64,000 nt of DNA, taken from contig CAKKNE010000005.1 of the NCBI GenBank assembly GCA_918797485.1, forward strand, positions 2,542,001 through 2,606,000. The letters run 5' to 3'. This DNA comes from Pelagomonas calceolata (Eukaryota; Sar; Pelagophyceae; Pelagomonadales; Pelagomonadaceae). The notes beneath the pieces were generated by a model, which was given only the letters and a program-made list of their open reading frames with translations, ran no database searches and was not told the DNA's origin. Positions 2,327 through 58,400 of the stretch are shown here, one piece after another. Numbering within the stretch: the first letter of the stretch is position 1; every line of letters starts with the position of its first letter. Both the position numbers and the translations under genes were made by a program.

Positions 2327-5300
2327 TCAAAAGTCGCCCGGCGCCGCCCGGCGCGGGCCGCGGAATCCGTCGTCCGGTGCCGCCCGGCTCGGTGGGCCGC
2401 GGTTGGGGGAGCCGAAGCCGTCGTCCGGTGCCGCCCGGCTCGGTGGGCCGCGGTTGGCGGAGCCGGAGCCGTAGTCTGGTGCCGCCCGGCGCGGCGGACC
2501 GCGGTTGAGCGGCGGCAACCGGCCCTGGCGGACGGGCGGGGCGCGCGGCGATTCCGCGTCGTAGGCGCGCCGTGGGGACTCGAGCGGCGCCGCCGCTGGT
2601 TCGATACGCGGCGTGGCGCGGCGCGAGGCCCAGCGCTCCGTCGTCAAACCTCCGCCCTGCGCGGCCTCGGCGACGGCCACGGCAGAAACCTTTCCTCGCC
2701 GCGTGCTCACGAGGTAGCCGCCGATGCCTGACAGGAGCATCAAAATAACAACTACCAACACCACAATGATGATGATAAGAGTGCCACCGCCCGAGTCGGA
2801 GCCGCCGCCGCCAGAGGCGGGGGCGGGGGCGGGGGCGGGGGCGGCGTCGTCGGCGGTGCCGTCGTCGTCGCCGACAGCGCCGCCAGGTGCCCCGCTCGAA
2901 GTTGTGGCCGTCGGCCGCGGGGACGGTTTTGTCGTCGGCCGCGGGGACGGCGCCGGCGAGGGCCTGGACGTCGGCCGCGGGGACGGCGCCGGCGTGGTGA
3001 CGACGAAGACGACCGTGGCCGCCGCAATCGCCGCGTACGTCGCCGTCACGTCCACGGTCACGGCGGCGAACGCGGAATCCGCGGCCTGCAGCGTGGTCAA
3101 GAAGCTCCCGTCGTCAATCGCCAGCGTCAGAGCGTCCATGGACTGCTCCAGCCTTTCCGCCGAGACTTGTTCGCCGTTATCCGTGCCGTCGATGCGGGCG
3201 ATGCCCGTGTACGAGATCGCGACGCCCGCGCCGCCGTCGTCGAGGCGCCGCCGCCCCGCGGCCACAATGTCTATGATCTCTTCGAAGAGACCGCCGGTGC
3301 TGTCCATGATCGACTGCGCGAACGCCGCCTGCCTGCCGGTCTTGTCGGCGTTAAACAGGACGGGGTTGACGCCCTCGAGCGTCACCGACGAAGCGACCTG
3401 GACCAGCGTCTGAGCTTGCGACGGCGCGGGGGTGGGGATGCGCGTCGGCCGGTGCGTCGGCGACGGCGACGGCGGCTCGGTCGTCGGCATTGGCGTGGGA
3501 ATGGGAGACGGCGCTCGCGTCGGTCGCGGCGTGGGCGTTGGCGTGGGCCGCGGCGTCGGAGCAAAGACCGGCGCCGCCGTGGGATTGCCGGGTAGGGGCG
3601 TCGGCGCCGGCGTGGGGGCCGGCGTCGGCCGGTGCGTCGGCGACGGCGACGGCCCCGGCGTGGTCGGCTGCGCCGTCGTGGGCGCCGGCGACGGCGCCGA
3701 CGTCGTAGGCCGAGGCGTCGGCTTCGGAGTCGGTCCGGGAGTCGGCGCCGTAGACGGCGCCGGCGAGGGCGGAAAGCCTACGACGACGTCCGCGTCGGCC
3801 GCGATCGTCGAGGCGGCGAAGTCGGTCAGATGCGTACACGCGCACGTCACGCCGGACGCCGTGTTCGCGACGACAGAACAGCCGTCGGAGGACCAGCTTC
3901 TCGTCACATTATCCCAGAACGAGCACGCGGCCGTCTTGGCGGGGCAGGTCACGGTGACGTCGAGCGGGACGCCGTCTCCCGAGTAAACGGGCGCCTCGAA
4001 GGTCATCGTCGACCCGTCGGGGAGCGTCACTTCGCGAGACTCCCCGCAGTCAAAGGTCGTGGGCACGTCGCAGTTGAAGGTCAGGACCTGGGACTGATTA
4101 AAGCACGTCTCCGTGTCCGTGCCCGGGTCGTAGTCGGCCTCGAGCGTCGGGTCGTAGTCGAACGGGATGTCGAACACGATGGGTTCGGCGAGATTGTCAA
4201 CCTTGACCGTGGCGCCTTCGCCGCCGAGTTCGATCTGCAGCAGATCCGAGACGGCGCCGTCGCCCTCAGAAGCGTGGACGTTCTTCAATTGGGCCACTTT
4301 CACGTCCACGTCGGCCGGCTCGCCGTCCAGGAGCCGTCGCCTCGAACGCCCGCGCCGCCTCGCGTCGGCGTCGCAGCTGCCGCCCCCGGCCTCGTCGAGG
4401 GCCGAGGCGGGCAGGTCCGTCACGCCGGCCCCGGAGGACAGTCGAAACGCCGCGTCCCGCGTCCCGCAGTCGGTCCGGAAGGCGCGCAGCTCCAGGTTGT
4501 CCGTGACGACGCTCTTGTTCTGGCCGCCGTAGGCGCCCGCGATCATGCCGGTGGCGAGGGCCCCCACCGTGCCGGCCATCTGCCCGTCTAGGGAGGTGTT
4601 CGACGCGCCCGACGCGAACAGGCTCGCATCCAGGAGGCTCGAGACGGTATCCGCCGCCGACGCCGCCGTGTCGTCGTCGATCCCATGTTTCGCGGCGTCG
4701 CCGACGACCTCGCCGAGCAGCCCGATCGCGCCCGTCTGCGAGCTCTCAGAGAGAGAGTCGGGGTCCCCGGTGAGCGTCGAGACAGTGAACAAGACTTGAG
4801 TCGCCGCCGCCGCGGACGAGCCCGTGCCCACCAGGCTCGCCGCGCTGATCGTGTGACCCATCAGGTCGTCGATCAGCTCCTGCTCGGAGGAAAGTCTCCG
4901 CCGACTCATGTCGGTCCCGCCTATGACGCTCGCCACGTTCGAGACCAGAGACAGCGACGCCTCGCCGTCGCCCGTGTTCGCCGACTCTGATAATAAATCG
5001 CCGGCGAGCGCCGAGAGGTCCTCGCCCGAGATCTCGAGCGGATCCACCCGCACGGGCGTGAAGGCTTGCGCGTAGGACAGGTAGCGGTCGAAGACGCGGC
5101 CGACGCAGGTGAGATTAACGTTGTTCGCCTGCGGCAGCGTCGTGACGAACCACGAGCTCGCGTACTGGTCCGCGACGAGCGGCGTCAAGGCCGAGTTCGC
5201 GGCCCGACGGTCCGCGAAGCTTGTCCCGCCCCCGCCGCCACGACTGCTGCCGCGCCTGCTTACCCGCTGGCGGTAGCTGTACGTGTACGTGAGCGGGTAG

Positions 5301-8300
5301 TCGTCGACGTCGTCGGACCAGCCGTCGAGCAGGAATTCAAACTCCGTCGTCAGCGCGGTGCCCCGGTACGGCGAGACGGCGAACGTGCCCGAGGTGGGCG
5401 GGCCGTTCGTCGTCAGGGAGACGACGGTCGAGGACGTCGACCCGATGCTGTCCGTGACCGTAAGTCTCAGCCGATACACGGCGTTGGGCCGCGTCTTGCC
5501 GAGGTCGATGAGCATGGGAGACGGTGCCCCGCTGGGCTTGCCGAGGAGGCCCGCCGACTGCCCGTCGCCGACGGACCAGGCGGTTTGCTCGATCGTTCTA
5601 GCAGAATCGGGGGACGTCGCCTTGAAGTAGATCGCCGTGAACGCGCCGTCCATGGGTTTGTACTTGACGCTCTCGTCGAAGTCCGTGATCGTCGCGCGGG
5701 GCATGTACTCGTCCGACGAGATTGACACCAGCACGCTGTAGGCCGCGCGCCGCGTGCCGCGCGAGACGGTCAGCGTGAATTCGTAGGTCGCGCCGCTCGT
5801 CCAGCCCGCGGCCGTCGTCGGCGTGAACGCGAGGACGGGTTGCGTCGCGTTTACGGAAGCGAGTAACGAGTTCGCGTCTTCCCTACTCCCGTCGTCCAGC
5901 ACGTGCGCCACGGTCCACGTGTATGCCATCGCGCCCTCGGCGTCGTTGTCGTCGGGGTCGTACGACTCGGACCCGTCCAGCTCGGCGTCGGCGCCGATCG
6001 CCACGGTCTGCTCGACGCCGCCCGATATCGAGGCCATCAAGTCCTGAGACCCGACGACGACCGTCGTAGTAGCGGAGTTGTTGATCGTCATGCTGTCCGC
6101 GAAGCCGACGGTCACCTGGAACTTGTAGGTCGTCTGCGCGTCCAGGGCGTCCGCCGGGAGGCGACACGTCACGGGGTTGGCGGTGTATTCCGCCAGTTTC
6201 GGGACGAGGTCTCGGACGTACGTCTCTCCCTCCAGCCGCCACGCGCGCCACACGTAGCCCAGCGCCGTGGACGACATGTTCGCGTCCGCGCAGGTCAGGT
6301 TGGGCAGGGCCACGTCGAGCTTGAGCGACTTTTTATCGGACCGGACCATGTTTTGCGTCGCGGCGCCCTGGAACTGGACGCCGGGCGCCGGCGAGGCCAG
6401 CTTGTGGACGGTCGCGGACACGGTCGTCGTCCCACCGAGAAAATTCGTCGCGGCGATGAGGAAGTCGTAGGCCCGACCTTCGAGGAGGTCGTCGAAGCCG
6501 AGGTCCAAGGTCACGGCGCCGGCGGCGTCGGCCTGTTGAAGCTTGGCCTCGAGCGCCGCCACGCTGGCCATGTCGGCGTCCGTCTCGGCGTCCCAGGTCG
6601 TCAGCACGCCCCAGTTGTACGTCAGAGCTCGCGAGCCACCACCCGTGGCGCCGCGCGCGTCGAGGACGACGCCGTCGCATTTGCCGACGCTCTCCGGCGC
6701 CGTGATGGAGATCGCCGGCAAGATGGGGTCCAGCGGCTTTTGGGCCTCGGCGTACTGGGCGGCGCTCGTGAGCGTCGCGCCGTCGAGGTCGTTCTTCAGC
6801 AGGCCGCCCTTGAGATGCGCGCTGTTGAGGGTCGTCGCGGCCACGTAGTCAAATGGCACGATCTGGGCGCCCGCGCCGAACGTTACGCGCAGCGCGCTCG
6901 AATTCGTCCAGGCGCACGTACCGTCCGCGCCGAATTGCTGCGCCGCGTACTCAAAGAGCGTGGCGCAATCAATATCCCACTCGCCGTCGATCATGTTCGT
7001 CGGGCTGTCGAAGAGCACGTCGAGGCCGTTGCCGCCGTCCAGGAACCGCACAAGTTCAAGCTTGGGCGGTGGCACACTATCTACAGAGAATTCGACAGCA
7101 ATCTCGACGTCTGAGACGGCGAGGTCGTCGAAGAAGGCGTCGGCGGATTCGACGTAATGCGTGAGTCTGGCCGTCCTGCCCTCCAAGACGTCTGGGTCTG
7201 CGAGAGAGGCGTTGACGGCCACGTACTTCCGAGCCCAGTCGTCCGGCGTGAACACGAGCCGCTTCGTGTAGAACACATTCGTGTCGGCGCAGTCGAGCGA
7301 CACGACGACGTTGGCCGTCGGCGGCGCGGAGAGCGTGATCCAGTAGCCGTCGCTGAACGTCGGACCGTCGACGCCGGCCCCGACCGTCAGCGCCTTGCCG
7401 CTCACGGTGGCGAAGGCGACGTCGTCCTCGATGACTTGGCACGTCATATTGGGCGAACGAACGCCGTCGTAGTTGGCGTCGGCAGAGCGCGCCACGAACC
7501 AGACGGAGTAGTTGCGGTCGCCGGATAATACAGCGTCGTCAGCAACGCGGAGAGTGTACGTCGCGAGCGAGGCCCAGTCGGCGGGCTCGACGGTCCGGTT
7601 CATTCCATCGGCACCGTCGACGGAGATGCTCTCGAACGCGTCGACGTCGCCCTCGACCTCGAGGCGCACGGCGGAAAACGGTAGGCTCGTCAGCGCCGCC
7701 GTGAAGACGAAGGTCGCGGCGTTCTCCTTTGCTTTCGCCGTGAGGGCCGCCGCGTCGGAGGTGACGGGGTCCGTCGTCGCCAGGAATTTGTTCACCGCGA
7801 TCAGCGACACGTCGACGTCCAGCACATTTACGGAAACCGTCTTCTCGAAGCCGCGCGCGCGGCCGTAGATCGGGTCCGTCGACGAGAGGAAGACCGTGAC
7901 GCTCTGGGCGACGCTGTCCCCGTTGTCGACGCGGTCCCGGAGCGCGCCGGCGGCGAGGGTAAGAATGGTGTCGCCGGCGGGGATCCACCTCGCGACGGAG
8001 GTGCTTCCGGCGTCCGACGTGAGCGCGTAGCCCGGGTTATCTGGGTCCTCGTCGTAGAAGCGGAGGGCACTGCCGGTCCGACCGCCGCCGCGCAGCGTCA
8101 ACCTCACGGGCTTGGTCGCCGGGACCGTGAGGTTGACGACCAGATGCTCTACTTTGAGACCCGTCCCCGTGAAGGCCGCCTCGGCCAGCTCCGGCGGCGC
8201 CGCCACCGAGAAGTCCGCGAGGCGGTAGTTTATGGTCGTCGGGGCGGTTGTAGGTACTGCCGACGGCGGCGAAGAGATCGTGGGCAGGCTCGTGGGCGCG

Positions 8301-11300
8301 GGCGTGGGCTCGGCCGTGGGCGCGGCCGTCGGCGCGGCCGACGGCGCGGCCGACGGTGCGGCCGACGGAAGCATCGTCATCGTCGGCGACGGGCTTGGTG
8401 ACGGCGTCGGCGCGGACGACGGCGCGGGCGACGGCTCGGCCGTCGAGGGGACAGGCGTCGGGGACGACGTCGGCAACGGCGAGGGCAAAGCCGACGGCGT
8501 CGCCGTCGTCGGATTGGGCGTCGGCTTGTGCGACGGCTCCGGAGAGGGATTAAGCGTCGGTCGCGGCGACGGCCGCGGCGTCGGCTTTTGCGACGGGTCC
8601 GCGGTCGGCGCGGGCGAGGGCCAGGGCGTCGGCGCAGGCGTAGGGCGCGACGACGGCGCCGGCGACGGTTTGGGCGTGGGCCGCGCCGTGGGCACAAATG
8701 AGGGCGCTGGCGTGGGCCGTGGCGTGGGCGTAGGTGTCGGGCGCGAGGACGGCGCCGGCGAGGGCTCCGGCGAGGGTCGTGGCGTCGGCGCAAACGAGGG
8801 CGCCGGCGTCGGTCGCGACGAGGGGCCCGGCGTCGGGCCCGGCGTCGGCGCAGGCGACGGCAGAGGCGTGGGCTTGGGGCTCGGCGCCGGCGTGGGTCTT
8901 GCCGTCGGCGCGAAGACGGGAGACGCCGTCGGGCTGCCCAGTGTGACCGACGGCGCGGGCGTAGGTCGTGTGGTCGGCCCCGGGCTCGGCGCCGTTGTTG
9001 GTGCGGGCGTAGGCCGCGGCGTGGGCATTGGGGTCGGCTTGCGCGACGGGGCCGCGGTCGGCGCGGGCGAGGGCCGGGGCGTCGGCGCAGGCGTAGGGCG
9101 CGACGACGGCGCCGGCGACGGTTCGGGCGTGGGCCGCGCCGTGGGCACAAATGAGGGCGCTGGCGTGGGCCGTGGCGTGGGCTTAGGTGTCGGGCGCGAG
9201 GACGGCGCCGGCGAGGGCTCCGGCGAGGGTCCTGGCGTCGGCGCAAACGAGGGCGCCGGCGTCGGTCGGGCCGACGGCCGGGGAGTCGGCCGGGCCGACG
9301 GTGCAGGCGTCGGTCGGGCCGTCGGCCGCGGCGTCGGCCGCGGAGTTGGTCTGTGCGATGGCGACGACGTCGGGGTCCCGGAAGGTCGCACGGTCGGGAC
9401 AGTTGACGGAATCGCGGTCGGCGCAGATATCGGGGACGACGTCGGAAGGGACGTGGGCGTGGCCGTCGGCGCGGCTGTCGGCGTGGACGTCGGGCGGGCC
9501 GTGGGCGTGGCCGTCGGCCTAGCCGTCGGAGCTGACGTCGGCATAGACGTCGGCGTCCACGTTGGATCGGATGTCGGCGTTGACGATGGCATGGCCGTCG
9601 TCGGCGCATCCGTCGGTATGGACGTCGGCGGCGCCGTAGGCTTGGCCGTCGGCACGACCGTCGGCACGATCGTCGGCGTAGGCGTCGGCGGCGCCGTAGG
9701 CTTGGCCGTCGGCACGACCGTCGGCACGATCGTCGGTGCGGACGTCGGAAGGGCGGTGGGCGTGGCCGTTGGCACGATCGACGGCACGATCGTCGGTATG
9801 GACGTCGGCGGCGCCGTAGGCTTGGCCGTCGGCACGACCGTCGGCACGATCGTCGGTGCGGACGTCGGAAGGGCGGTGGGCGTGGCCGTTGGCACGATCG
9901 ACGGCGCAGCCGTCGGTGTGTATGTTGGCGTCGACGTGGGCGTCGACGACGGCAGCGGCGAAGGAAGCAGGGTCGGCGGCTGCGTCGGGCTGGCCGTCGT
10001 CGGAGCGGGCGACTCCGCTGTCGTCGGCGCCGCCGTCGGGCCGAAGGTCCCGAGCTCGACGCGGCCGTCGTCGTCCCAGTCGCGCGCGACCGCGCCCGCG
10101 CGCGAGGCCACGTACGTGACCAGGGTCGCGGTCACGACCGCATCGCACGCAAACGCGCGGTTCGGCTTGGCCTCGTAGCTCCAGGGCTCGCCGTCCATCC
10201 GCATCGCGACGGCCATCGAGCTCGAGACGACCTTCGCGTCGCGCCAGACGCCCGCGAAGCCCTCGCGGAGGCCCTCGATCGCGGCGCCGCCGTCCATGTC
10301 CATCGTCAGGCTGTCGAACCCCATCAGGTCGGTGCTGTTCATGTCCACCGCGCCGTAGACGCACGACGTGCGCTCGTGGACCTCCTGTTCCGCCTTGAGC
10401 TCCGCCACGGTCGCCAGGCGCCGCCCGCCGGAGGTCGAACCCGTCGGCGTCGGGGTCGCAAACGGCGTCGACGACGACGGCGCGGCCGTCGTCGCGGCCG
10501 TTGGCGGGGACGTTGGAAGCGCTGTGGACTCAGTCGCCGGCTGGCGCAGGTCCCCTTCCCTCTGGAGCAGGAAGCGCTGCTGCAGCACCGTCCTCCCGTC
10601 GACGTCGACGTGTCCCCCGTAGCCAAGAGCGAAGCGGTCCGTGGCGTCGTCCTTGACCCAGTCGTGGTCGACGTGGACGAGGAAGCGCTCCCGCGCGGCT
10701 TCCAGGTCGGTCACCTTCATGCCGAGGACGTAGGCCACGCCCGATTCGTTGTGGTCGCTCCATTTTACTGTGCCCGTGACCGTCTCGTTGAGCTTCTCGT
10801 CGCCGTCAACGCGCAGCGCGAGCCCAAGCGAGCCAGCCATGGCCTCGTCCTGCGAGTCGCCGTCGGCGGTCATCGCCATGTGCAGCTTCTCGCGGTTCCG
10901 GTTGATGACCGTCATGCTGGCCTGCAGGTCGTCTCGATTCGCGTCGGTCATGCCGCTCCAGTCGACGGCGCCCGACAGATGGCCATCAAGCTTGTCGTCA
11001 GCGTCCGTTCGCACGAGTAGCCCAAGCGAGCCAGCCATGGCCTCGTCCTGCGAGTCGCCGTCGGCGGTCATCGCCATGTGTAGCCGTTCTCGCTGCTTGT
11101 TGATGACCGTCATGCTGGCCCGTAGGTCCTCCTCGGTGCCGCTCCAGTCGGCGGTGCCCGAGACCGTCGCATCGAGCTCCTCCTTTGCGTCGACGCGCAG
11201 CGCGAGCCCGAGCGAGCCAGCCATGGCCTCGTCCTGCGAGTCGCCGTCGGCGGTCATCGCCATGTGTAGCCGTTCTCGCTGCTTGTTGCTGACCGTCATA

Positions 11301-14300: not shown

Positions 14301-17300
14301 CCGTATGTCGTCTCGGCTCGGGTGCGTCGTGCCGCTCCAGTCGAGGCCGCCCGACACAAGGCCGTCGATCTCCTCCTCGTCATCGAGGCGCACGAGCAGC
14401 CCGAGGGCCGTCCTCTCGCGGAATCGCGAGTTGCCGTCCGCGGTCATGGCCATGTGCAGCTTCTCGCGGTTCCGGTTGCTGACCGTCATGCTGGCCTCGA
14501 GGGCGTCGCTCCAGTCGAGGCCGCCCGAGACGCGGCCGTCGAACTTCTCGTCCGCCTCAGCGAACAGAGCGAGCCCCAGCGAGCCTGACACGGCCTCGTC
14601 CTGCGAGTCGCCGTCCGCGGTCATCGCCATGCGGAACCGTTCTCGGTCCTTGTTGCTGACCGCCATGCGGACCCGTATGTCGTCTCGGCTCGGGTGCGTC
14701 GTGCCGCTCCAGTCGAAGCCGCCGGACACAAGGCCGTCGATCTCCTCCTCGTCATCGAGGCGCACGAGCAGCCCGAGGGCCGTCCTCTCGCGGAATCGCG
14801 AGTTGCCGTCCGCGGTCATGGCCATGTGCAGCTTCTCGCGGTTCCGGTTGCTGACCGTCATGCTGGCCTCGAGGGGCGTCGCCCAGTCGAGGCCGCCCGA
14901 GACGCGGCCGTCGAACTTCTCGTCCGCCTCAGCGAACAGAGCGAGCCCCAGCGAGCCTGACACGGCCTCGTCCTGCGAGTCGCCGTCCGCGGTCATCGCC
15001 ATGCGGAACCGTTCTCGGTCCTTGTTGCTGACCGCCATGCGGACCCGTATGTCGTCTCGGCTCGGGTGCGTCGTGCCGCTCCAGTCGAAGCCGCCGGACA
15101 CAAGGCCGTCGATCTCCTCCTCGTTATCGAGGCGCACGAGCAGCCCGAGGGAGCCGTCCCTCTCGCGGAATCGCGAGTTGCCGTCCGCGGTCATGGCCAT
15201 ATGCAGCTTCTCGCGGTTCCGGTTGATGACCGTCATGCTGGCCTGCAGGTCGTCTCGATTCGCGTCGGTCATGCCGCTCCAGTCGACGGCGCCCGACAGA
15301 TGGCCATCAAGCTTGTCGTCAGCGTCCGTTCGCACGAGTAGCCCAAGCGAGCCAGCCATGGCCTCGTCCTGCGAGTCGCCGTCGGCGGTCATCGCCATGT
15401 GTAGCCGTTCTCGCTGCTTGTTGATGACCGTCATGCTGGCCCGTAGGTCCTCCTCCGTGCCGCTCCAGTCGGCGGTGCCCGAGACCGTCGCATCGAGCTG
15501 CTCCTTTGCGTCGACGCGCAGCGCGAGCCCGAGCGAGCCAGCCATGGCCTCGTCCTGCGAGTCGCCGTCGGCGGTCATGGCCATATGCAGCTTCTCGCGG
15601 TTCCGGTTGATGACCGTCATGCTGGCCTGCAGGTCGTCTCGATTCGCGTCGGTCATGCCGCTCCAGTCGACGGCGCCCGACAGATGGCCATCAAGCTTGT
15701 CGTCAGCGTCCGTTCGCACGAGTAGCCCGAGCGAGCCAGCCATGGCCTCGTCCTGCGAGTCGCCGTCGGCGGTCATGGCCATATGCAGCTTCTCGCGGTT
15801 CCGGTTGATGACCGTCATGCTGGCCTGCAGGTCGTCTCGATTCGCGTCGGTCATGCCGCTCCAGTCGACGGCGCCCGACAGATGGCCATCAAGCTTGTCG
15901 TCAGCGTCCGTTCGCACGAGTAGCCCAAGCGAGCCAGCCATGGCCTCGTCCTGCGAGTCGCCGTCGGCGGTCATCGCCATGTGTAGCCGTTCTCGCTGCT
16001 TGTTGATGACCGTCATGCTGGCCCGTAGGTCCTCCTCCGTGCCGCTCCAGTCGGCGGTGCCCGAGACCGTCGCATCGAGCTGCTCCTTTGCGTCGACGCG
16101 CAGCGCGAGCCCGAGCGAGCCAGCCATGGCCTCGTCCTGCGAGTCGCCGTCGGCGGTCATGGCCATATGCAGCTTCTCGCGGTTCCGGTTGATGACCGTC
16201 ATGCTGGCCTGCAGGTCGTCTCGATTCGCGTCGGTCATGCCGCTCCAGTCGACGGCGCCCGACAGATGGCCATCAAGCTTGTCGTCAGCGTCCGTTCGCA
16301 CGAGTAGCCCAAGCGAGCCAGCCATGGCCTCGTCCTGCGAGTCGCCGTCGGCGGTCATTGCCATGTGCAGCCGTTCTTGGTCCTTGTTGCTGACCGTCAT
16401 GCTGGCCCGTAGGTCCGTCTGATCCGCGTCCTCCGTGCCGCTCCAGTCGAAGCTGCCTGACACAAGGCCGTCGACCTCGTTCTCGTTATCGACGCGCACG
16501 AGCAGCCCGAGGGAGCCGTCCCTCTCGCGGAATCGCGAGTTGCCGTCCGCGGTCATCGCCATGTGGACCTTCTCTCTACCCTCGTTGCTGACCGTCATGC
16601 GGGCCTCCAGGGCGTCGCTCCAGTCGAGGCCGCCCGACACAAGGCCGTCGAACTTCTCGTCAGCGTCGACGCGCAGCGCGAGCCTGAGCGAGCCCTCCCT
16701 AGCCTTGTTTCGCGAGTCGCCGTCGGCGGTCATTGCCATGTGCAGCCGTTCCCGCTGCTTGTTGATGACCGTCATGCTGGCCCGTAGGTCCTCCTCCGTG
16801 CCGCTCCAGTCGGCGGTGCCCGAGACCGTCGCATCGAGCTGCTCCTTTGCGTCGACGCGCAGCGCGAGCCCGAGCGAGCCAGCCATGGCCTCGTCCTGCG
16901 AGTCGCCGTCGGCGGTCATGGCCATATGCAGCTTCTCGCGGTTCCGGTTGATGACCGTCATGCTGGCCTGCAGGTCGTCTCGATTCGCGTCGGTCATGCC
17001 GCTCCAGTCGACGGCGCCCGACAGATGGCCATCAAGCTTGTCGTCAGCGTCCGTTCGCACGAGTAGCCCAAGCGAGCCAGCCATGGCCTCGTCCTGCGAG
17101 TCGCCGTCGGCGGTCATCGCCATGTGTAGCCGTTCTCGCTGCTTGTTGATGACCGTCATGCTGGCCCGTAGGTCCTCCTCCGTGCCGCTCCAGTCGGCGG
17201 TGCCCGAGACCGTCGCATCGAGCTGCTCCTTTGCGTCGACGCGCAGCGCGAGCCCGAGCGAGCCAGCCATGGCCTCGTCCTGCGAGTCGCCGTCGGCGGT

Positions 17301-20300
17301 CATGGCCATATGCAGCTTCTCGCGGTTCCGGTTGATGACCGTCATGCTGGCCTGCAGGTCGTCTCGATTCGCGTCGGTCATGCCGCTCCAGTCGACGGCG
17401 CCCGACAGATGGCCATCAAGCTTGTCGTCAGCGTCCGTTCGCACGAGTAGCCCAAGCGAGCCAGCCATGGCCTCGTCCTGCGAGTCGCCGTCGGCGGTCA
17501 TTGCCATGTGCAGCCGTTCTTGGTCCTTGTTGCTGACCGTCATGCTGGCCCGTAGGTCCTCCTCCGTGCCGCTCCAGTCGGCGGTGCCCGAGACCGTCGC
17601 ATCGAGCTGCTCCTTTGCGTCGACGCGCAGCAGCGAGCCCGAGCGAGCCAGCCATGGCCTCGTCCTGCGAGTCGCCGTCGGCGGTCATGGCCATATGCAG
17701 CTTCTCGCGGTTCCGGTTGATGACCGTCATGCTGGCCTGCAGGTCGTCTCGATTCAAGGCGTCGGTCATGCCGCTCCAGTCGACGGCGCCCGACAGATGG
17801 CCATCAAGCTTGTCGTCAGCGTCCGTTCGCACGAGTAGCCCAAGCGAGCCAGCCATGGCCTCGTCCTGCGAGTCGCCGTCGGCGGTCATTGCCATGTGCA
17901 GCCGTTCTTGGTCCTTGTTGCTGACCGTCATGCTGGCCCGTAGGTCCTCCTCCGTGCCGCTCCAGTCGGCGGTGCCCGAGACCGTCGCATCGAGCTGCTC
18001 CTTTGCGTCGACGCGCAGCGCGAGCCCGAGCGAGCCAGCCATGGCCTCGTCCTGCGAGTCGCCGTCGGCGGTCATGGCCATATGCAGCTTCTCGCGGTTC
18101 CGGTTGATGACCGTCATGCTGGCCTGCAGGTCGTCTCGATTCGCGTCGGTCATGCCGCTCCAGTCGACGGCGCCCGACAGATGGCCATCAAGCTTGTCGT
18201 CAGCGTCCGTTCGCACGAGTAGCCCAAGCGAGCCAGCCATGGCCTCGTCCTGCGAGTCGCCGTCGGCGGTCATCGCCATGTGTAGCCGTTCTCGCTGCTT
18301 GTTGATGACCGTCATGCTGGCCCGTAGGTCCTCCTCCGTGCCGCTCCAGTCGGCGGTGCCCGAGACCGTCGCATCGAGCTGCTCCTTTGCGTCGACGCGC
18401 AGCGCGAGCCCGAGCGAGCCAGCCATGGCCTCGTCCTGCGAGTCGCCGTCGGCGGTCATGGCCATATGCAGCTTCTCGCGGTTCCGGTTGATGACCGTCA
18501 TGCTGGCCTGCAGGTCGTCTCGATTCGCGTCGGTCATGCCGCTCCAGTCGACGGCGCCCGACAGATGGCCATCAAGCTTGTCGTCAGCGTCCGTTCGCAC
18601 GAGTAGCCCAAGCGAGCCAGCCATGGCCTCGTCCTGCGAGTCGCCGTCGGCGGTCATCGCCATGTGTAGCCGTTCTCGCTGCTTGTTGATGACCGTCATG
18701 CTGGCCCGTAGGTCCGTCTGATCCGCGTCCTCCGTGCCGCTCCAGTCGAAGCTGCCTGACACAAGGCCGTCGACCTCGTTCTCGTTATCGACGCGCACGA
18801 GCAGCCCGAGGGAGCCGTCCCTCTCGCGGAATCGCGAGTTGCCGTCCGCGGTCATCGCCATGTGGACCTTCTCTCTACCCTCGTTGCTGACCGTCATGCG
18901 GGCCTCCAGGGCGTCGCTCCAGTCGAGGCCGCCCGACACAAGGCCGTCGAACTTCTCGTCAGCGTCGACGCGCAGCGCGAGCCTGAGCGAGCCCTCCCTA
19001 GCCTTGTTTCGCGAGTCGCCGTCGGCGGTCATTGCCATGTGCAGCCGTTCCCGCTGCTTGTTGCTGACCGTCATGCTGGCCCGTAGGTCCGTCTGATCCG
19101 CGTCCTCCGTGCCGCTCCAGTCGAAGCTGCCTGACACAAGGCCGTCGACCTCGTTCTCGTTATCGACGCGCACGAGCAGCCCGAGGGAGCCGTCCCTCTC
19201 GCGGAATCGCGAGTTGCCGTCCGCGGTCATCGCCATGTGGACCTTCTCTCTACCCTCGTTGCTGACCGTCATGCGGGCCTCCAGGGCGTCGCTCCAGTCG
19301 AGGCCGCCCGACACAAGGCCGTCGAACTTCTCGTCAGCGTCGACGCGCAGCGCGAGCCCGAGCGAGCCCTCCCTAGCCTTGTTTCGCGAGTCGCCGTCGG
19401 CGGTCATTGCCATGTGCAGCCGTTCTTGGTCCTTGTTGCTGACCGTCATGCTGGCCCGTAGGTCCGTCTGATCCGCGTCCTCCGTGCCGCTCCAGTCGAA
19501 GCTGCCTGACACAAGGCCGTCGACCTCGTTCTCGTTATCGACGCGCACGAGCAGCCCGAGGGAGCCGTCCCTCTCGCGGAATCGCGAGTTGCCGTCCGCG
19601 GTCATCGCCATGTGGACCTTCTCTCTACCCTCGTTGCTGACCGTCATGCGGGCCTCCAGGGCGTCGCTCCAGTCGAGGCCGCCCGACACAAGGCCGTCGA
19701 ACTTCTCGTCAGCGTCGACGCGCAGCGCGAGCCTGAGCGAGCCCTCCCTAGCCTTGTTTCGCGAGTCGCCGTCGGCGGTCATTGCCATGTGCAGCCGTTC
19801 CCGCTGCTTGTTGCTGACCGTCATGCTGGCCCGTAGGTCCGTCTGATCCGCGTCCTCCGTGCCGCTCCAGTCGAAGCTGCCTGACACAAGGCCGTCGACC
19901 TCGTTCTCGTTATCGACGCGCACGAGCAGCCCGAGGGAGCCGTCCCTCTCGCGGAATCGCGAGTTGCCGTCCGCGGTCATCGCCATGTGGACCTTCTCTC
20001 TACCCTCGTTGCTGACCGTCATGCGGGCCTCCAGGGCGTCGCTCCAGTCGAGGCCGCCCGACACAAGGCCGTCGAACTTCTCGTCAGCGTCGACGCGCAG
20101 CGCGAGCCCGAGCGAGCCCCTCCTAGCCTTGTTTCGCGAGTCGCCGTCGGCGGTCATTGCCATGTGCAGCCGTTCCCGCTGCTTGTTGCTGACCGTCATG
20201 CTGGCCCGTAGGTCCGTCTGATCCGCGTCCTCCGTGCCGCTCCAGTCGAAGCTGCCTGACACAAGGCCGTCGACCTCGTTCTCGTTATCGACGCGCACGA

Positions 20301-23300
20301 GCAGCCCGAGGGAGCCGTCCCTCTCGCGGAATCGCGAGTTGCCGTCCGCGGTCATCGCCATGTGGACCTTCTCTCTACCCTCGTTGCTGACCGTCATGCG
20401 GGCCTCCAGGGCGTCGCTCCAGTCGAGGCCGCCCGAGACGCGGCCGTCGAACTTCTCGTCAGCGTCGACGCGCAGCGCGAGCCCGAGCGAGCCCTCCCTA
20501 GCCTTGTTTCGCGAGTCGCCGTCGGCCGTCATTGCCATGTGCAGCCGTTCCCGCTGCTTGTTGCTGACCGTCATGCTGGCCCGTAGGTCCGTCTGATCCG
20601 CGTCCTCCGTGCCGCTCCAGTCGAAGCTGCCTGACACAAGGCCGTCGACCTCGTTCTCGTTATCGACGCGCACGAGCAGCCCGAGGGAGCCGTCCCTCTC
20701 GCGGAATCGCGAGTTGCCGTCCGCGGTCATCGCCATGTGGACCTTCTCTCTACCCTCGTTGCTGACCGTCATGCGGGCCTCCAGGGCGTCGCTCCAGTCG
20801 AGGCCGCCCGACACAAGGCCGTCGAACTTCTCGTCAGCGTCGACGCGCAGCGCGAGCCCGAGCGAGCCCTCCCTAGCCTTGTTTCGCGAGTCGCCGTCGG
20901 CGGTCATTGCCATGTGCAGCCGTTCCCGCTGCTTGTTGCTGACCGTCATGCTGGCCCGTAGGTCCGTCTGATCCGCGTCCTCCGTGCCGCTCCAGTCGAA
21001 GCTGCCTGACACAAGGCCGTCGACCTCGTTCGTTATCGACGGCAAGCGCACGAGCAGCCCGAGGGAGCCGTCCCTCTCGCGGAATCGCGAGTTGCCGTCC
21101 GCGGTCATCGCCATGTGGACCTTCTCTCTACCCTCGTTGCTGACCGTCATGCGGGCCTCCAGGGCGTCGCTCCAGTCGAGGCCGCCCGACACAAGGCCGT
21201 CGAACTTCGTCAGCGTCGACGCGCAGCGCGAGCCTGAGCGAGCCTCCCTAGCCTTGTTTCGCGAGTCGCCGTCGGCGGTCATTGCCATGTGCAGCCGTTC
21301 CCGCTGCTTGTTGCTGACCGTCATGCTGGCCCGTAGGTCCGTCTGATCCGCGTCCTCCGTGCCGCTCCAGTCGAAGCTGCCTGACACAAGGCCGTCGACC
21401 TCGTTCTCGTTATCGACGCGCACGAGCAGCCCGAGGGAGCCGTCCCTCTCGCGGAATCGCGAGTTGCCGTCCGCGGTCATCGCCATGTGGACCTTCTCTC
21501 TACCCTCGTTGCTGACCGTCATGCGGGCCTCCAGGGCGTCGCTCCAGTCGAGGCCGCCCGACACAAGGCCGTCGAACTTCTCGTCAGCGTCGACGCGCAG
21601 CGCGAGCCCGAGCGAGCCCTCCCTAGCCTTGTTTCGCGAGTCGCCGTCGGCGGTCATTGCCATGTGCAGCCGTTCCCGCTGCTTGTTGCTGACCGTCATG
21701 CTGGCCCGTAGGTCCGTCTGATCCGCGTCCTCCGTGCCGCTCCAGTCGAAGCTGCCTGACACAAGGCCGTCGACCTCGTTCTCGTTATCGACGCGCACGA
21801 GCAGCCCGAGGGAGCCGTCCCTCTCGCGGAATCGCGAGTTGCCGTCCGCGGTCATCGCCATGTGGACCTTCTCTCTACCCTCGTTGCTGACCGTCATGCG
21901 GGCCTCCAGGGCGTCGCTCCAGTCGAGGCCGCCCGAGACGCGGCCGTCGAACTTCTCGTCAGCGTCGACGCGCAGCGCGAGCCCGAGCGAGCCCTCCCTA
22001 GCCTTGTTTCGCGAGTCGCCGTCGGCAGTCATTGCCATGTGCAGCCGTTCCCGCTGCTTGTTGCTGACCGTCATGCTGGCCCGTAGGTCCGTCTGATCCG
22101 CGTCCTCCGTGCCGCTCCAGTCGAAGCTGCCTGACACAAGGCCGTCGACCTCGTTCTCGTTATCGACGCGCACGAGCAGCCCGAGGGAGCCGTCCCTCTC
22201 GCGGAATCGCGAGTTGCCGTCCGCGGTCATCGCCATGTGGACCTTCTCTCTACCCTCGTTGCTGACCGTCATGCGGGCCTCCAGGGCGTCGCTCCAGTCG
22301 AGGCCGCCCGACACAAGGCCGTCGAACTTCTCGTCAGCGTCGACGCGCAGCGCGAGCCCGAGCGAGCCCTCCCTAGCCTTGTTTCGCGAGTCGCCGTCGG
22401 CGGTCATTGCCATGTGCAGCCGTTCCCGCTGCTTGTTGCTGACCGTCATGCTGGCCCGTAGGTCCGTCTGATCCGCGTCCTCCGTGCCGCTCCAGTCGAA
22501 GCTGCCTGACACAAGGCCGTCGACCTCGTTCTCGTTATCGACGCGCACGAGCAGCCCGAGGGAGCCGTCCCTCTCGCGGAATCGCGAGTTGCCGTCCGCG
22601 GTCATCGCCATGTGGACCTTCTCTCTACCCTCGTTGCTGACCGTCATGCGGGCCTCCAGGGCGTCGCTCCAGTCGAGGCCGCCCGAGACGCGGCCGTCGA
22701 ACTTCTCGTCAGCGTCGACGCGCAGCGCGAGCCCGAGCGAGCCCCTAGCCTTGTTTCGCGAGTCGCCGTCGGCAGTCATTGCCATGTGCAGCCGTTCCCG
22801 CTGCTTGTTGCTGACCGTCATGCTGGCCCGTAGGTCCGTCTGATCCGCGTCCTCCGTGCCGCTCCAGTCGAAGCTGCCTGACACAAGGCCGTCGACCTCG
22901 TTCTCGTTATCGACGCGCACGAGCAGCCCGAGGGAGCCGTCCCTCTCGCGGAATCGCGAGTTGCCGTCCGCGGTCATCGCCATGTGGACCTTCTCTCTAC
23001 CCTCGTTGCTGACCGTCATGCGGGCCTCCAGGGCGTCGCTCCAGTCGAGGCCGCCCGACACAAGGCCGTCGAACTTCTCGTCAGCGTTGACGCGCAGCGC
23101 GAGCCCGAGCGAGCCCTCCCTAGCCTTGTTTCGCGAGTCGCCGTCGGCGGTCATTGCCATGTGCAGCCGTTCCCGCTGCTTGTTGCTGACCGTCATGCTG
23201 GCCCGTAGGTCCGTCTGATCCGCGTCCTCCGTGCCGCTCCAGTCGAAGCTGCCTGACACAAGGCCGTCGACCTCGTTCTCGTTATCGACGCGCACGAGCA

Positions 23301-25533
23301 GCCCCATGGAGCCAGCCATAGCCTCGTCCTGCGAGTCCCCGTCGGCGGTCATCGCCATGTGTAGCCGTTCCCGCTGCTTGTTGCTGACCGTCATGCTGGC
23401 CCATAGGTCCGTCTGATTCGCGTCGGTCATGCCGCTCCAGTCGACGGCGCCCGACAGATGGCCATCAAGCTTGTCGTCAGCGTCCGTTCGCACGAGTAGC
23501 CCAAGCGAGCCAGCCATGGCCTCGTCCTGCGAGTCGCCGTCGGCGGTCATCGCCATGTGTAGCCGTTCTTGGTCCTTGTTGATGACCGTCATGCTGGCCT
23601 GGAGGTCCGTCTGATCCGCGTCCTCCGTGCCGCTCCAGTCGACGGCGCCCGAGACCGTCGCATCAAGCTCCTCCTTTGCGTCGACGCGCACGGTTAGGGA
23701 CGTTAGGCCCGAGGCTCTTTTTCCGCTCGCCGCGCCATCCGCGACGAAATCGGCGCGGAGCAGCTCTCCCCCCTTGTCGCTGATGTTCAAGTAGGATTCG
23801 AGGGCTGGGCGCCCGGGCTCGCCGACGAAACCGCGGGCCTCGACGGCGACGAAGCGGGGCCTGGCCGACTTGGCGTCCTCGAGCCGCCCCAGGACCGCGT
23901 TGCCGTCCGCCGTGTCGAAGACGGCGCGCCAGTCCACCTTCGTCCTGTTCGCCGTGGGGTCCACGACCTCGAGGTGGGCGCAGAACGCGCCCTTGGCCGA
24001 GATGCACAACTTGCAGTCGAGCGAGTCGTCCCAGATCATCGGCTGGCAGCCGGCGTCGCGCGGGCAGCTCCGCTCGAAGAGGCCGGGGGCGGCGGCGGTG
24101 CGGAGGCGCCGGCGCCCGCGCGGCGCCCCGCGCGGCAGGACGCGCGCCCGCGCCTCGGGCGTCGCGACGTCGAGCGCGTGGTCGCCGGCGAGCGCGCCGA
24201 GGAACGTCGCGGCGTCCATGCGCGTGCGGACCCGGAGCTCGCGCCGCAGGAGCTGGTGCTTGAGCGCGCGCTTCGCCCGGCCGTCGTCGTCGGTGGCGCG
24301 CAGGACGAGCGGCCCGCACGCGGCGGCGCGCGGGCTCGCGCACGCGGTTCCCAGCGCGCCGCGGCGCAGGTCGACCTCGAAGGCGGCGAGCTCGACGCGC
24401 GCCGCCGCCGCCGCGGCGTCCGTCTCGTTGAGCGCCGGCAGCAGCGCGTCGACCGCGACCGCCGGCACCGCGAGGACGACGCGGTCGACCGCTGGAGGCA
24501 GCGCCACGGCGAACGCGGGCGGCGCGTACGCGAGCGCCGCGCTGTCCTCGCGCCACTCGGGCTCGACGCGCGCGAGCTCCCGCACGACCTCGCGCAGCGT
24601 CCGCGCGACGCGCCGGATCGGGTCGGTCGCGTCGATGGTCTCGGGGGCGGCGACGACGCCGGCGTCGGCGTCGGCACCGGGGGCGGCGGCGGCACCGGGG
24701 GCGGCGGCGGCACCGGGGGCGGCGGCGGCGCTGTCGGCGCCGGCGCTGTCGGCAGCGCCCTTGGCGCCGGCGCCGGCGCCGCGCCAGGACGCGCGGACGC
24801 CGCGGAGCAGCACCTCGACGGGCAGCGCATGCCAGAGCCGCGTTCGCGTCCGCACGTCGCAGACCAGGCGCGCGCCGGCGAGGTCCTCGGGGCGGTGCAG
24901 GCGCCGCAGCTGGTCGAAGTCGATGCGGTGGAGGCGCAGGTCGACGCGCCGGCGCGTGCGCTCGCGCGCGGACACCAGCGGCCACGCGCGGCCCGGCTGG
25001 GCCGAGAGGCGCCCGGCGCGCGCGAAGTCCTCGCCGGCGAAGCGCAGATCGACGGCGCAGTCGGCGGCGGTCACGACGACCTCGTGGAGCGTGGACCGGA
25101 GGAACTGCGGCTTCGCGTCGACGGCGACGACGACGTCGCGCCCCTCGAGGGTCACGCGCGCGACGGCGCCGGCCGCGCCGAGGCCGCGCGCCGCGAGCGC
25201 CGCGAGCCAGATCACGGGCACGAGCGACGCCAGCGCCGCGACGACGACCGCCGCCGTCGCGATGGTCAGGGGGCGCCGGCGCGCCGCCCTCAGCGCCCGG
25301 CGCGCGCGCGACCGCGGCGGCGGCGGCCGCGCGGCGACGAGGCCGGCCTCCTCGATCAGGTCGCCGGACCGGCCCGACTTCCGCGCGACCTCGAGGGGCT
25401 GCGCCGCCTCGCCGGGGTCGACGGCGCCCGCCGCGGCCGACTTGCGCGCGACCTCGAGGGGCTGCCCCTCCTCGGCCGCCGCCCCGCCGGGCGCGACGGC
25501 AGCCCGCTGCCGCCAGGGCGCGAGCACTCTCAT
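2327..25533 (-). CDS. giant REJ-GPS surface protein with about 69 tandem beta-repeats, mucin-like regions and two membrane helices
   Basis: ATG at 25533, TGA at 2327-2329, about 7,735 codons. Parts in order: an Arg-rich N-terminus with two QPLEVARKS copies; membrane helix at residues 88-116; a 500-residue unknown region; about 69 repeats (23700-10755); a short conserved segment; a Pro/Thr mucin-like region (10070-8235); Calx-beta-like then REJ-like sequence (about 8230-4900; Cys-Asp-Gly at about 6680); a GAIN/GPS motif (about 3930-3800); Pro/Thr (3775-3430); a beta-rich domain; Pro/Thr (2995-2875); helix (about 2790-2710); a tail of [14 protein letters not shown]-type repeats. The reading frame breaks twice inside the repeats, near 17632 and 14233. 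Each break is one extra base compared with neighbouring copies, so I read this as one gene with likely consensus errors. In known families REJ plus GPS occurs in polycystin-1-type proteins, but this one lacks their channel part. The role (adhesion, mechanosensing or coat) is inferred. Confidence 0.8.
2335..2520 (-). repeat. C-terminal tail repeats of the giant protein
   Basis: Three near-identical units of about 17 codons encode NRGPP-[SR]-RAAPD-[YD]-GFGS and variants. They form the last 60 residues of the cytosolic tail after the second membrane helix. The units are Pro/Arg-rich and probably disordered. Confidence 0.8.
2875..2995 (-). repeat. Pro/Thr/Ser-rich linker 3 of the giant protein
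   Basis: A short run of PSPRPT/PSPAPS units lies just before the C-terminal membrane helix, with an Ala/Pro stretch beside it. Likely an O-glycosylated stalk. Confidence 0.7.
3430..3775 (-). repeat. Pro/Thr/Ser-rich linker 2 of the giant protein
   Basis: Repeating PTP/PAPT/RPTP units separate the GPS motif from the membrane-proximal beta-rich domain. The composition matches the larger mucin-like block at 8235-10070. Confidence 0.75.
3800..3930 (-). other. GPS autoproteolysis motif (end of GAIN-like domain)
   Basis: Read on the minus strand, the segment carries the full GPS signature: CSFWDN, then W-S, a Gly-Cys, and CACTHLTDF. In adhesion GPCRs and polycystin-1 the chain cuts itself between Leu and Thr/Ser of His-Leu-Thr. 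Here those codons are CTG (3827-3829) and ACC (3824-3826). All four motif cysteines and both tryptophans are present, so cleavage competence is plausible. Confidence 0.85.
8235..10070 (-). repeat. mucin-like Pro/Thr-rich region of the giant protein
   Basis: About 600 residues of PTxxPT, PTPAPS and PTARPT units with a near three-residue rhythm, including exact repeats of about 100 bp (9620-9720 against 9780-9850 and beyond). Expected to be extended and heavily O-glycosylated. Codon bias also leaves the opposite strand open here. Confidence 0.85.
12084..15179 (-). repeat. higher-order repeat block D (372/375 bp)
   Basis: About eight copies of a two-unit repeat. One unit carries [15 protein letters not shown] and FRMAMTADG; the other carries EADEKFDG and SDALEASM. 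The period is 375 bp, or 372 bp where a 3-bp loss changes RERDGSLG to RERTALG (near 13280, 14401 and 14776). Confidence 0.8.
15180..18733 (-). repeat. higher-order repeat block C (381 bp)
   Basis: Copies of a 127-residue pair: a unit with [13 protein letters not shown] and [10 protein letters not shown], alternating with a unit with [12 protein letters not shown] and TEEDLRA. The segment at about 17026, 17407, 17800, 18180 and 18560 recurs every 381 bp (one extra codon near 17755). One extra single unit (201 bp) is inserted at 15683-15884. Confidence 0.8.
18734..23230 (-). repeat. higher-order repeat block B (12 x 375 bp)
   Basis: Twelve head-to-tail copies of a 125-residue pair (66 + 59 residues), starting at 18734, 19109, 19484 and so on every 375 bp to 22856; one copy is 3 bp short. 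Copies are nearly identical, which points to recent expansion or strong homogenisation. Confidence 0.9.
24655..24770 (-). repeat. low-complexity Pro-Gly-Ala run in the giant protein N-terminal region
   Basis: An 18-bp unit encoding PGAAAA is repeated several times. It lies between the N-terminal membrane helix and the first beta-repeat. Confidence 0.7.
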
Positions 25534-26284
25534 GATGGTCTAGAGCTCATGGCAGCGATCGGCTGGGGCTACTGCCCTCTAGCGCCGAACTTATACCACA
25601 TCTCCTGCTGGCTTGGAACTAGTATGTACAGATATGCTAGCGTCTTTTCGAAGCGCGCACCCACGGTTCTCAGGAGCCGCCCGGCCCCGCGGGCGCGTCC
25701 GGCGAGATGTCCGCCGGCTTTACGCTCGCAACAACCCGAGACCTCGGCCCCGCGCCCCTGGCGCGCGCGCGGCGCGCAAGTACTACCGCATGTGCTCCCG
25801 GGGATCCTGTCCCTCTCGGGGCCGCGCGAGTCCATACCGGGCCCCGGGCTCCCCGAGACGAACGCGAAGCTGGTCGCGCGGCGTGACGGACGCCTCGCGT
25901 ACTACGCGCAGCGCAGGGGGGGGGTGCCTCGGAACTCGTCCGGGGGGCCTCCGCCGGGCCGCGCAGCGCGGCCCGGAGACTCCTCTCGGGCGGAGGAGAC
26001 GCCGCCGCCCGACGCCGCGCGCCGCTTCCGGGACGCGAGCGCGGCCGGAGCCGTCCCGGCGCGGGGACCACAACATGCGGGGGTCGCGCTGATGCGTGCG
26101 AAACCGGGCCGGCCTCTGCTAGCCGCACGTGCGCTCCTGCCGCCGGGCCTTGTTTTTGGCAGCGCCAATCCTTGCCAGCTGCTCCAAAGGGCGGCCTCGC
26201 ACCTGTTTGCCCGTCGCCTCCACGCCCGCGGTGTGGGCGCTGAGCTGCCCTTGCTCTCACGCGGTCTCGGCTAGCCGGCTGCCC
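25534..26284. other. divergent promoter region between giant gene and FEA1-like gene
   Basis: This 750-bp GC-rich gap separates the two divergent ATGs at 25533 (-) and 26285 (+). It contains one copy of the GCTAGC...ACTAG element. No supportable gene; the ORFs crossing it are Arg/Pro-rich noise. An in-frame ATG at 26129 was not used because the ATG at 26285 starts a clean signal peptide. Confidence 0.6.
25618..25642 (-). promoter_or_regulatory. palindromic intergenic element, copy A (divergent variant)
   Basis: Read on the minus strand: GCTAGC, spacer with CTGTACA, then TACTAG. It lies 85-110 bp upstream of the giant gene start. It is weaker than other copies because GCG is replaced by GCA. 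Confidence 0.45.
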
Positions 26285-57980: not shown

Positions 57981-58400
57981 CTAGCTCTTGGTCGGGTCTC
58001 AAGCAAAGCGCCTTCGCGTCCGCGTTCAGCAGACTCAAGGTTGTGCGGCGGCGGTTCCCTTTTTTTTCCCGCACATCGCTGCACGACCTCTGCGACGAGT
58101 CCCCTGGGGCGGGGAGGGGTCCCGCAGGACCGCGCGCAAAAACCCGTCGGTTAAGCAGAGGCTAGGGCTAGGGCAATATTCGTTTTCAGCTCTGAACGTC
58201 GAGGTTCACTGCTTGCACTTTAGTCAGAGCAAGCAGCGCTGAAGCTCTGCAGTCAACGGCACCACTGATAACCGCACAACTACAGCGAGACCTCATACGC
58301 CGCCACCGAAGCGCCCTCAGCGCCACTGGTTTCAGACACTGACTTGGCGCATACAAATAGAGACGAGAAGCCTCGCTCAACCGCCAACGACGAGAGCACC
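57981..58400. other. region upstream of the multicopper oxidase
   Basis: No supportable gene. It has GGCTAGGGCTAGGGC near 58165, possibly a decayed palindromic element. Confidence 0.4.

Follow-up and report, generated by a model that had tools for sequence, protein, structure and literature searches.

In the polycystin-1 family (PKD1, PKD1L, PKDREJ, the sea urchin REJ proteins, s-Themis and Esi0130_0068), a large ectodomain carries a REJ domain followed by a GPS motif, with a predicted cut between Leu and Thr of a His-Leu-Thr (HLT) tripeptide. Polycystin-1 itself is cut at this bond, the region of GAIN and REJ is critical for the cut, and the two halves can remain non-covalently joined (PMC4810088). 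Most members of the family continue after the GPS into several to 11 membrane helices, as exemplified by Esi0130_0068 of the brown alga Ectocarpus, which has REJ, GPS and 6 or 7 helices (PMC4700764), and by the ascidian s-Themis with 5 or 11 (PMC9265791). In a 2025 paper, PKD1-like proteins are given as the only GAIN family besides the adhesion G protein-coupled receptors (GPCRs) (PMC11697300). The origin of the GAIN domain has been placed before Holozoa, making it older than animals and their relatives (PMC12716839), so its occurrence in an alga is no surprise; and since a brown algal REJ-GPS protein has been described, the module is not new to stramenopiles (PMC4700764). Here we describe a probable giant gene that carries such a module on the minus strand of a 64,000-nucleotide stretch of Pelagomonas calceolata DNA (contig CAKKNE010000005.1, positions 2,542,001 to 2,606,000; hereafter the window, whose own numbering is used below). 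The gene looks like that of a eukaryotic alga, probably a stramenopile.

The likeness to the polycystin-1 family ends after the GPS, where the algal protein has a single strong helix in place of the several to 11 found in most members; its 69 beta repeats and its probable second anchor at the N-terminus are likewise unmatched there. Sea urchin suREJ1 has one helix only, and a one-helix REJ protein may therefore not be new. With chains of the adhesion GPCRs ADGRF1, G3, L3 and E5 the protein shares four Cys and two Trp in the GPS, and HLT with F1, G3 and L3, but it is without the seven-helix part, and the stalk after the predicted cut enters a linker of more than 100 residues rich in proline and threonine (P/T-rich), not a receptor core. 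Because no multi-helix part could be found, we file the protein neither as a polycystin-1 nor as an adhesion GPCR, although it may still work like them. We infer that the gene encodes a single giant cell-surface glycoprotein that would cut itself and form a loop anchored in the membrane at both ends, a reading to which we assign a probability of about one half. The product would probably be an adhesion or mechanosensing protein of the REJ/GPS kind, without a 7- or 11-helix part.

A repeat array fused to a REJ-GPS module

Between 25533 and 2327 the minus strand carries three overlapping long open reading frames (ORFs A, B and C, in order of translation; Table 1). An in-frame stop lies immediately 5' of the ATG of ORF A at 25533 and, beyond the two frame breaks discussed below, no stop or break was found in the three ORFs. 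Their G+C content is 0.65-0.70, 0.45-0.57 and 0.87-0.89 at the first, second and third codon positions, which is the pattern of coding DNA in a GC-rich genome. The window ranges from 0.605 to 0.785 in 2-kb steps, values that suit a pelagophyte source, as the published G+C content of Aureococcus is 67.4% and that of Pelagomonas 63.6% (PMC9481584). In 200 mononucleotide shuffles of the 11.9-kb stretch of ORF C the longest open run was at most 476 codons, as against 3963 observed.

ORF C is uninterrupted: the last 19 repeat units (one partial) are followed by a P/T-rich stalk, REJ, GPS, a second stalk, a transmembrane helix and, at the end, a tail rich in basic residues. Since this one uninterrupted 3963-codon ORF contains both, the fusion of the repeat array to REJ-GPS is secure and independent of the two frame breaks. 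The first-pass annotation had raised the concern that the repeat part and the REJ-GPS part might be separate genes, and at the level of ORFs this is answered. Its assignments of REJ (Pfam PF02010, E 2.8e-40, spanning 437 of 452 profile positions) and GPS (PF01825, E 3.1e-9) are upheld, and the order of modules had been read correctly, as the profile matches and the content of ORF C agree. The GPS reads CTHLT, with HLT at 3832-3824, and when it is aligned to the chains of ADGRF1, G3, L3 and E5 the Cys and Trp residues noted above fall in place; the E5 chain has HLA instead of HLT. Between the GPS and the stop at 2327 there are one strong and one weaker hydropathy peak. PLAT and channel families are not among the Pfam matches, and neither the Pfam scan nor hydropathy revealed a seven-helix domain.

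Sequence, constraint and fold of the repeats

A profile seeded from two units gave 70 matches in an unbroken row, all on the minus strand, with no plus-strand match reported in the window. One unit is split by a local shift, leaving 69 units, and the figure of about 69 proposed earlier is thus borne out by profile search and spacing. Units of about 59 or 62 residues alternate, though not throughout, with units of 66, and three sequence classes can be told apart, arranged in blocks, 4 of the 69 being left unassigned by simple labels. Among the 63 units that are complete in the profile match (the other 6 were left out), 1953 pairwise comparisons gave a median synonymous difference (pS) of 0.36, a median nonsynonymous difference (pN) of 0.20 and a summed pN/pS of 0.56. 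For ungapped units of equal length the in-frame ratio is 0.37 (16 units, 120 pairs) and 0.48 (21 units, 210 pairs), whereas the same units read in the other two frames give 1.16-1.52. As the ratio is low only in frame, the repeat is under selection as a protein in this frame.

Each unit contains four stretches of alternating hydrophobic and polar residues (strand limits placed by eye from the alignment), and none of 100000 within-strand shuffles produced an alternation as strong; one strand face is mostly hydrophobic and the other polar. The units are acidic, their net charge averaging -5.2 over 63 units. All of ORF B and the repeat parts of the other two ORFs, 4310 residues in total, hold just 2 N-glycosylation sequons and 2 cysteines, both cysteines sitting in frame-shifted stretches of ORF A; the following 2334 residues of ORF C hold 18 sequons.

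AlphaFold was run on six units with an alignment of 12 rows drawn from the window (A3). The best of five models has a predicted local distance difference test score (pLDDT) of 76.1 and a predicted template modelling score (pTM) of 0.76, is beta throughout except for three-residue helical turns, and shows 16 strand elements by DSSP, some hairpins being merged; the other four models reach pLDDT 58.2, 51.9, 49.1 and 47.2. Another alignment, covering the last units and the array end (A1; 42 rows, the query and 41 of 49 six-unit stretches), gave a best model of pLDDT 59.8 and pTM 0.65, with 56.0, 36.7, 31.8 and 30.8 for the others, and the four strands per unit are clearest in its middle units. A further alignment (A2; 19 rows, 521 columns) was dropped as its rows were out of phase. 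While the weaker models caution against over-reading the fold, we read the array, on a model of moderate confidence, as a continuous antiparallel beta-meander with one hydrophobic face, which may be packed on itself or may bind something.

No family could be assigned to the repeat. For neither model did Foldseek return a solved structure at E<=0.001, a viral structure library gave no match at the same threshold, and the repeat profile matched no PDB chain sequence at E<=10. Two Pfam families were rejected, DUF4754 (69.8 bits in ORF A and 59.8 in ORF B against a whole-protein cut-off of 27) and Gemin6_C (58 bits in ORF B against 33.4): the cut-offs are exceeded only as a sum, no single stretch passes, and some 30-38 of 80 profile positions are covered. 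NCBIfam infA and pgm, which appeared on the repeat piece below cut-off and with no stretch passing, were likewise set aside. The earlier claim that the repeat belongs to no known family agrees with the lack of a convincing relative in Pfam, NCBIfam or PDB.

Two frame breaks within the array

Both frame breaks fall within well-kept repeats: the flanking units lack no more than five or six residues, and the unit spacing across each break leaves a remainder of one base. Introns at the ORF junctions were rejected, because units so nearly complete on either side leave none of the space that an intron would need. Sequence errors in a near-identical 13-kb array offer the simplest account of both breaks and are more likely than introns. 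A few other units carry compensated local shifts, one small variant is common to three class II units (48, 50 and 56), and part of the length variation of the array may be real. Because the stretch 11986-15244 repeats with 97% matches in a tandem-repeat scan, the unit count may be an assembly figure, and the real genome may carry a different number of units. As for the single protein of about 7,700 residues that had been proposed, the last 19 units do share ORF C with REJ, GPS and the helix, but ORFs A and B are joined to them only across the two breaks.

Topology and a proposed mechanism

The helix near the N-terminus has the strongest hydropathy in ORF A (2.54, residues 95-113), with 7 basic residues among the 15 before it and 2 among the 15 after; the C-terminal helix has none in the 15 residues before and 3 in the 20 after. 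Since basic residues flank the outer sides of both helices, the positive-inside rule would place both ends in the cytosol. The double anchoring claimed by the first-pass annotation therefore fits the charge pattern, but it depends on bridging both breaks, as the N-terminal helix joins the REJ-GPS chain only across them, and on the first helix escaping signal peptidase.

On the premise that both frame breaks stem from errors in the sequence, the chain would have about 7,470 residues outside and its two ends in the cytosol. During synthesis in the endoplasmic reticulum the GAIN module, supported by REJ, would cut itself between Leu and Thr, yielding two parts clasped non-covalently, a large N-terminal one and a C-terminal one of 499 residues. 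As each part would have its own membrane helix, the cut would give a membrane-closed loop and not a sheddable fragment. The clasp could open when another cell, a surface or the coat of the cell pulls on the array or stalk; this would free the stalk after the cut and alter the C-terminal half, with neither half lost from the cell. As for the repeats, they would act as a beta spacer, very long, acidic and almost free of sequons, or as a ligand-binding sheet. A mechanical role is reasonable, and mechanosensing, adhesion and coat building are all possible.

Several points weigh against this reading. The N-terminal anchor is encoded in a different frame, two breaks away from REJ-GPS, and its hydrophobic core is followed by small residues (A-L-A and A-V-A, read by eye) at which signal peptidase might cut. 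At the other end, a weaker hydrophobic stretch between the GPS and the strong helix (1.92, ORF C residues 3722-3740) could complicate the topology. Over the GAIN region the GPS is the only Pfam model matched, in a scan that drops most matches above E 0.1. With 348 residues between the predicted cut and the membrane helix, the protein may be cleaved less efficiently than adhesion GPCRs are; constructs of those receptors are cut less when the site is far from the membrane, and their full seven-helix part enhances cleavage (PMC12488864). In favour of cleavage, the same source describes a GAIN domain tethered by a single unrelated helix that still cuts itself and whose self-cutting is favoured by N-glycosylation (PMC12488864). 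The GAIN-GPS stretch of the algal protein has four sequons. A further point against the reading is that no confirmed relative was found of the repeat or REJ-GPS pieces among viral and prokaryotic contigs, or of the N-terminal piece among viral contigs, which says little because the collections searched were viral and prokaryotic.

Alternative explanations

Were the hydrophobic segment of ORF A a cleaved signal, or part of another product, the protein would be anchored at its C-terminus only, and the fragment made of array, stalk and REJ could be shed into the water or the coat. The breaks that part the N-terminal region from REJ-GPS and the small residues after the hydrophobic core are both consistent with such an arrangement, and attachment on a single side is usual for GPS proteins. 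However, about 90 residues, arginine-rich at their end, precede the helix, a lead seldom seen in removable signals but characteristic of signal anchors, and the near-intact repeats beside each break make the breaks look like sequence errors; a C-terminal anchor alone is accordingly unlikely in our estimate, if a serious alternative. The same breaks could instead be real and mark a broken allele, the repeat gene being variable or in decay and its array a minisatellite that is unstable and has little function. Such decay would accommodate two uncompensated breaks, the few compensated shifts with the variant common to units 48, 50 and 56, and the stretch of the array whose copies match at 97%. 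Yet assemblies also err in long near-identical arrays, pN/pS lies well under 1 solely in the reading frame, and the three ORFs are otherwise unbroken, with REJ, GPS and helix intact and a clear codon-position bias, all of which makes decay very improbable.

The fold of the array invites another comparison. The array could be a belt or groove of amphipathic beta structure, binding lipid or other hydrophobic molecules outside the cell in the style of apoB-100 or the bridge-like lipid-transfer proteins, with REJ-GPS controlling release or opening. Like those systems it is modelled as one long antiparallel meander with a hydrophobic and a polar face, and apoB-100 is the top Foldseek match for both repeat models (E 0.49, and E 0.36 with TM score 0.16); it supplies three of the best eight matches of the second, in whose list a chain of microsomal triglyceride transfer protein ranks 33rd. 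These matches are not significant, though, and there is no sequence relation; many of the 50 matches listed are porins or other beta barrels, as expected for any long meander, and a self-packed beta stack needs a hydrophobic face equally. No Bridge-like lipid-transfer, AsmA or TamB family, nor any other lipid-transfer family, is among the Pfam matches of the three ORFs at E<=1, and the algal array differs from the lipid carriers in its strict short repeat and its fusion to REJ-GPS. We find a lipid-binding belt improbable. Only slightly less so is a bolder combination in which a double-anchored, self-nicked loop would carry lipid or polymer in the cell coat on a continuous amphipathic beta ribbon of about 130 nm (about 276 strands at 0.48 nm, if laid flat), its REJ-GAIN buckle opening under load without shedding; this would be a new sort of GAIN protein. 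We retain the self-cut loop anchored at both ends as the preferred reading.

Two other groups of surface proteins bear comparison with this loop. Bacterial Periscope-type proteins also display a long surface array of closely similar units whose number may vary (PMC9704523), but theirs are separately folding domains with one attachment, while in the algal model the units make up a single continuous sheet, and the gene is eukaryote-like. Proline-rich surface glycoproteins of algae, from mastigonemes and cell coats, resemble the protein in their PTxxPTxxPS stalks, and a chain of OCM3, which we take to be an Ochromonas mastigoneme protein, matches at E 2.9e-12. Because the circumsporozoite protein matches the stalk better (E 7.5e-18, the best of the PDB matches), these and similar matches were taken as low-complexity composition, and no match to such proteins was found outside the stalk.

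Other features and neighbouring genes

Table 1. Features of the proposed giant gene, numbered as in the window.
Feature	Position	Strand	Length	Basis and remarks
ORF A, first ORF	25533-17428	-	2701 residues	ORF listing
ORF B, second ORF	17543-14184	-	1119 residues	ORF listing
ORF C, third ORF	14218-2327	-	3963 residues	ORF listing
N-terminal hydrophobic helix, probable type II signal anchor	25195..25266	-		ORF A residues 90-113; arginine-rich, presumed cytosolic segment before it
N-terminal ectodomain	23710..25194	-	~495 residues	No recognised fold; possibly a degenerate half repeat at its end
Tandem beta-repeat array	10742..23709	-	69 units, last partial	Profile search, spacing, tandem array, AlphaFold, frame-specific constraint
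Frame break ORF A/ORF B	17633..17650	-		Repeat units 32/33; three-frame translation, unit spacing not divisible by 3
Frame break ORF B/ORF C	14212..14232	-		Repeat units 50/51; three-frame translation, unit spacing not divisible by 3
Divergent C-terminal array end	10541..10741	-		ORF C up to REGDLRQ; beta predicted, pLDDT 39-58 per ten-residue block
Short T/P/S-rich linker and cysteine-containing segment	10019..10540	-	segment ~130 residues	Sequence; best Pfam stretches of ORF C lie elsewhere
P/T/S-rich stalk (PTxxPTxxPS)	8255..10018	-	588 residues	Composition scan, tandem repeats
Segment of possibly three beta domains	7073..8230	-	~386 residues	Domains of ~115-140 residues; weak matches only
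REJ domain with K319L-like PKD match inside	4943..6262	-		Pfam PF02010; PF22352 E 1.5e-6
Presumed GAIN region	3929..4942	-	338 residues	Lies between REJ and GPS; three of the four sequons of the GAIN-GPS stretch
GPS motif	3815..3928	-		Pfam PF01825; predicted cut between Leu and Thr at 3827/3826
Second P/T-rich stalk	3425..3775	-		Composition scan
Domain between stalk and membrane	2993..3418	-	~140 residues	Sequence; RRRL stretch mid-domain
C-terminal transmembrane helix	2711..2782	-		Hydropathy 3.56, ORF C residues 3814-3832; basic side after
Basic, presumed cytosolic tail and stop	2327..2710	-		Sequence; tandem repeat 2363-2512

Residues 1-500 of ORF A alone have no Pfam match, and the scan of the whole ORF gave DUF2939 at residues 352-391 below cut-off (E 0.13). 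The N-terminal ectodomain has no PDB sequence match at E<=10 and no NCBIfam or PHROGs match at E<=0.1. There is a weak repeat match at residues 573-602 (E 0.11); an internal repeat in the N-terminal region is unsupported, its score being reached in 100 of 300 shuffles. Downstream of the array, the long stalk is probably O-glycosylated to judge from its composition. The segment between this stalk and REJ shows a weak match to the Ig-like family Gmad2 (E 0.25, residues 2112-2149) and none in further profile scans, and a three-fold domain repeat was rejected there since only its second and third parts are weakly alike (8 of 300 shuffles, as against 48 and 248 of 300 for the other pairs). Beyond the GPS, the piece 2330-3778 has MCM as its sole Pfam match, below cut-off (E 0.18), and the domain of some 140 residues next to the membrane could be a further cleavage or dimer module. 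The repeat in the cytosolic tail consists of three copies of a 17-residue unit, NRGPP(S/R)RAAPD(D/Y)G.

The divergent neighbour on the plus strand (26129-28822) has a likely signal peptide, Cys-rich repeats and a domain of the low-iron-inducible periplasmic protein Fea1 (PF07692, E 4.2e-15); 752 bases separate its likely initiating Met, at 26285, from the point where the giant gene starts. Another gene that may be related to metals, at 58344-60347 (+), encodes multicopper oxidase domains (PF07731 and PF07732). At 60441-62108 (-) a single ORF pairs, oddly, a RING-variant domain (residues 35-92) with semialdehyde dehydrogenase domains. The window also contains genes for a kinesin and an SMC protein; together with the Fea1 gene and the G+C content, these neighbours fit a eukaryotic alga. 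One neighbouring ORF that was compared with phages gave no match.

Significance

Among the titles and abstract openings listed, which leave most subscription journals outside, there was no printed description of this architecture, and that is weak evidence of novelty. Three features appear to be without a match so far: the family of the repeat, the joining of the repeats to REJ-GPS, and the second anchor that the protein probably has. The 69-unit repeat, with no convincing family and a model of moderate confidence, would be practical to make and solve. If both ends of the protein are anchored, the cut cannot serve ectodomain shedding, and the purpose of GAIN cleavage becomes testable. More broadly, a REJ-GPS protein without a seven- or eleven-helix part would suggest that GAIN self-cleavage operates outside receptors and channels, and does so in a lineage distant from animals.

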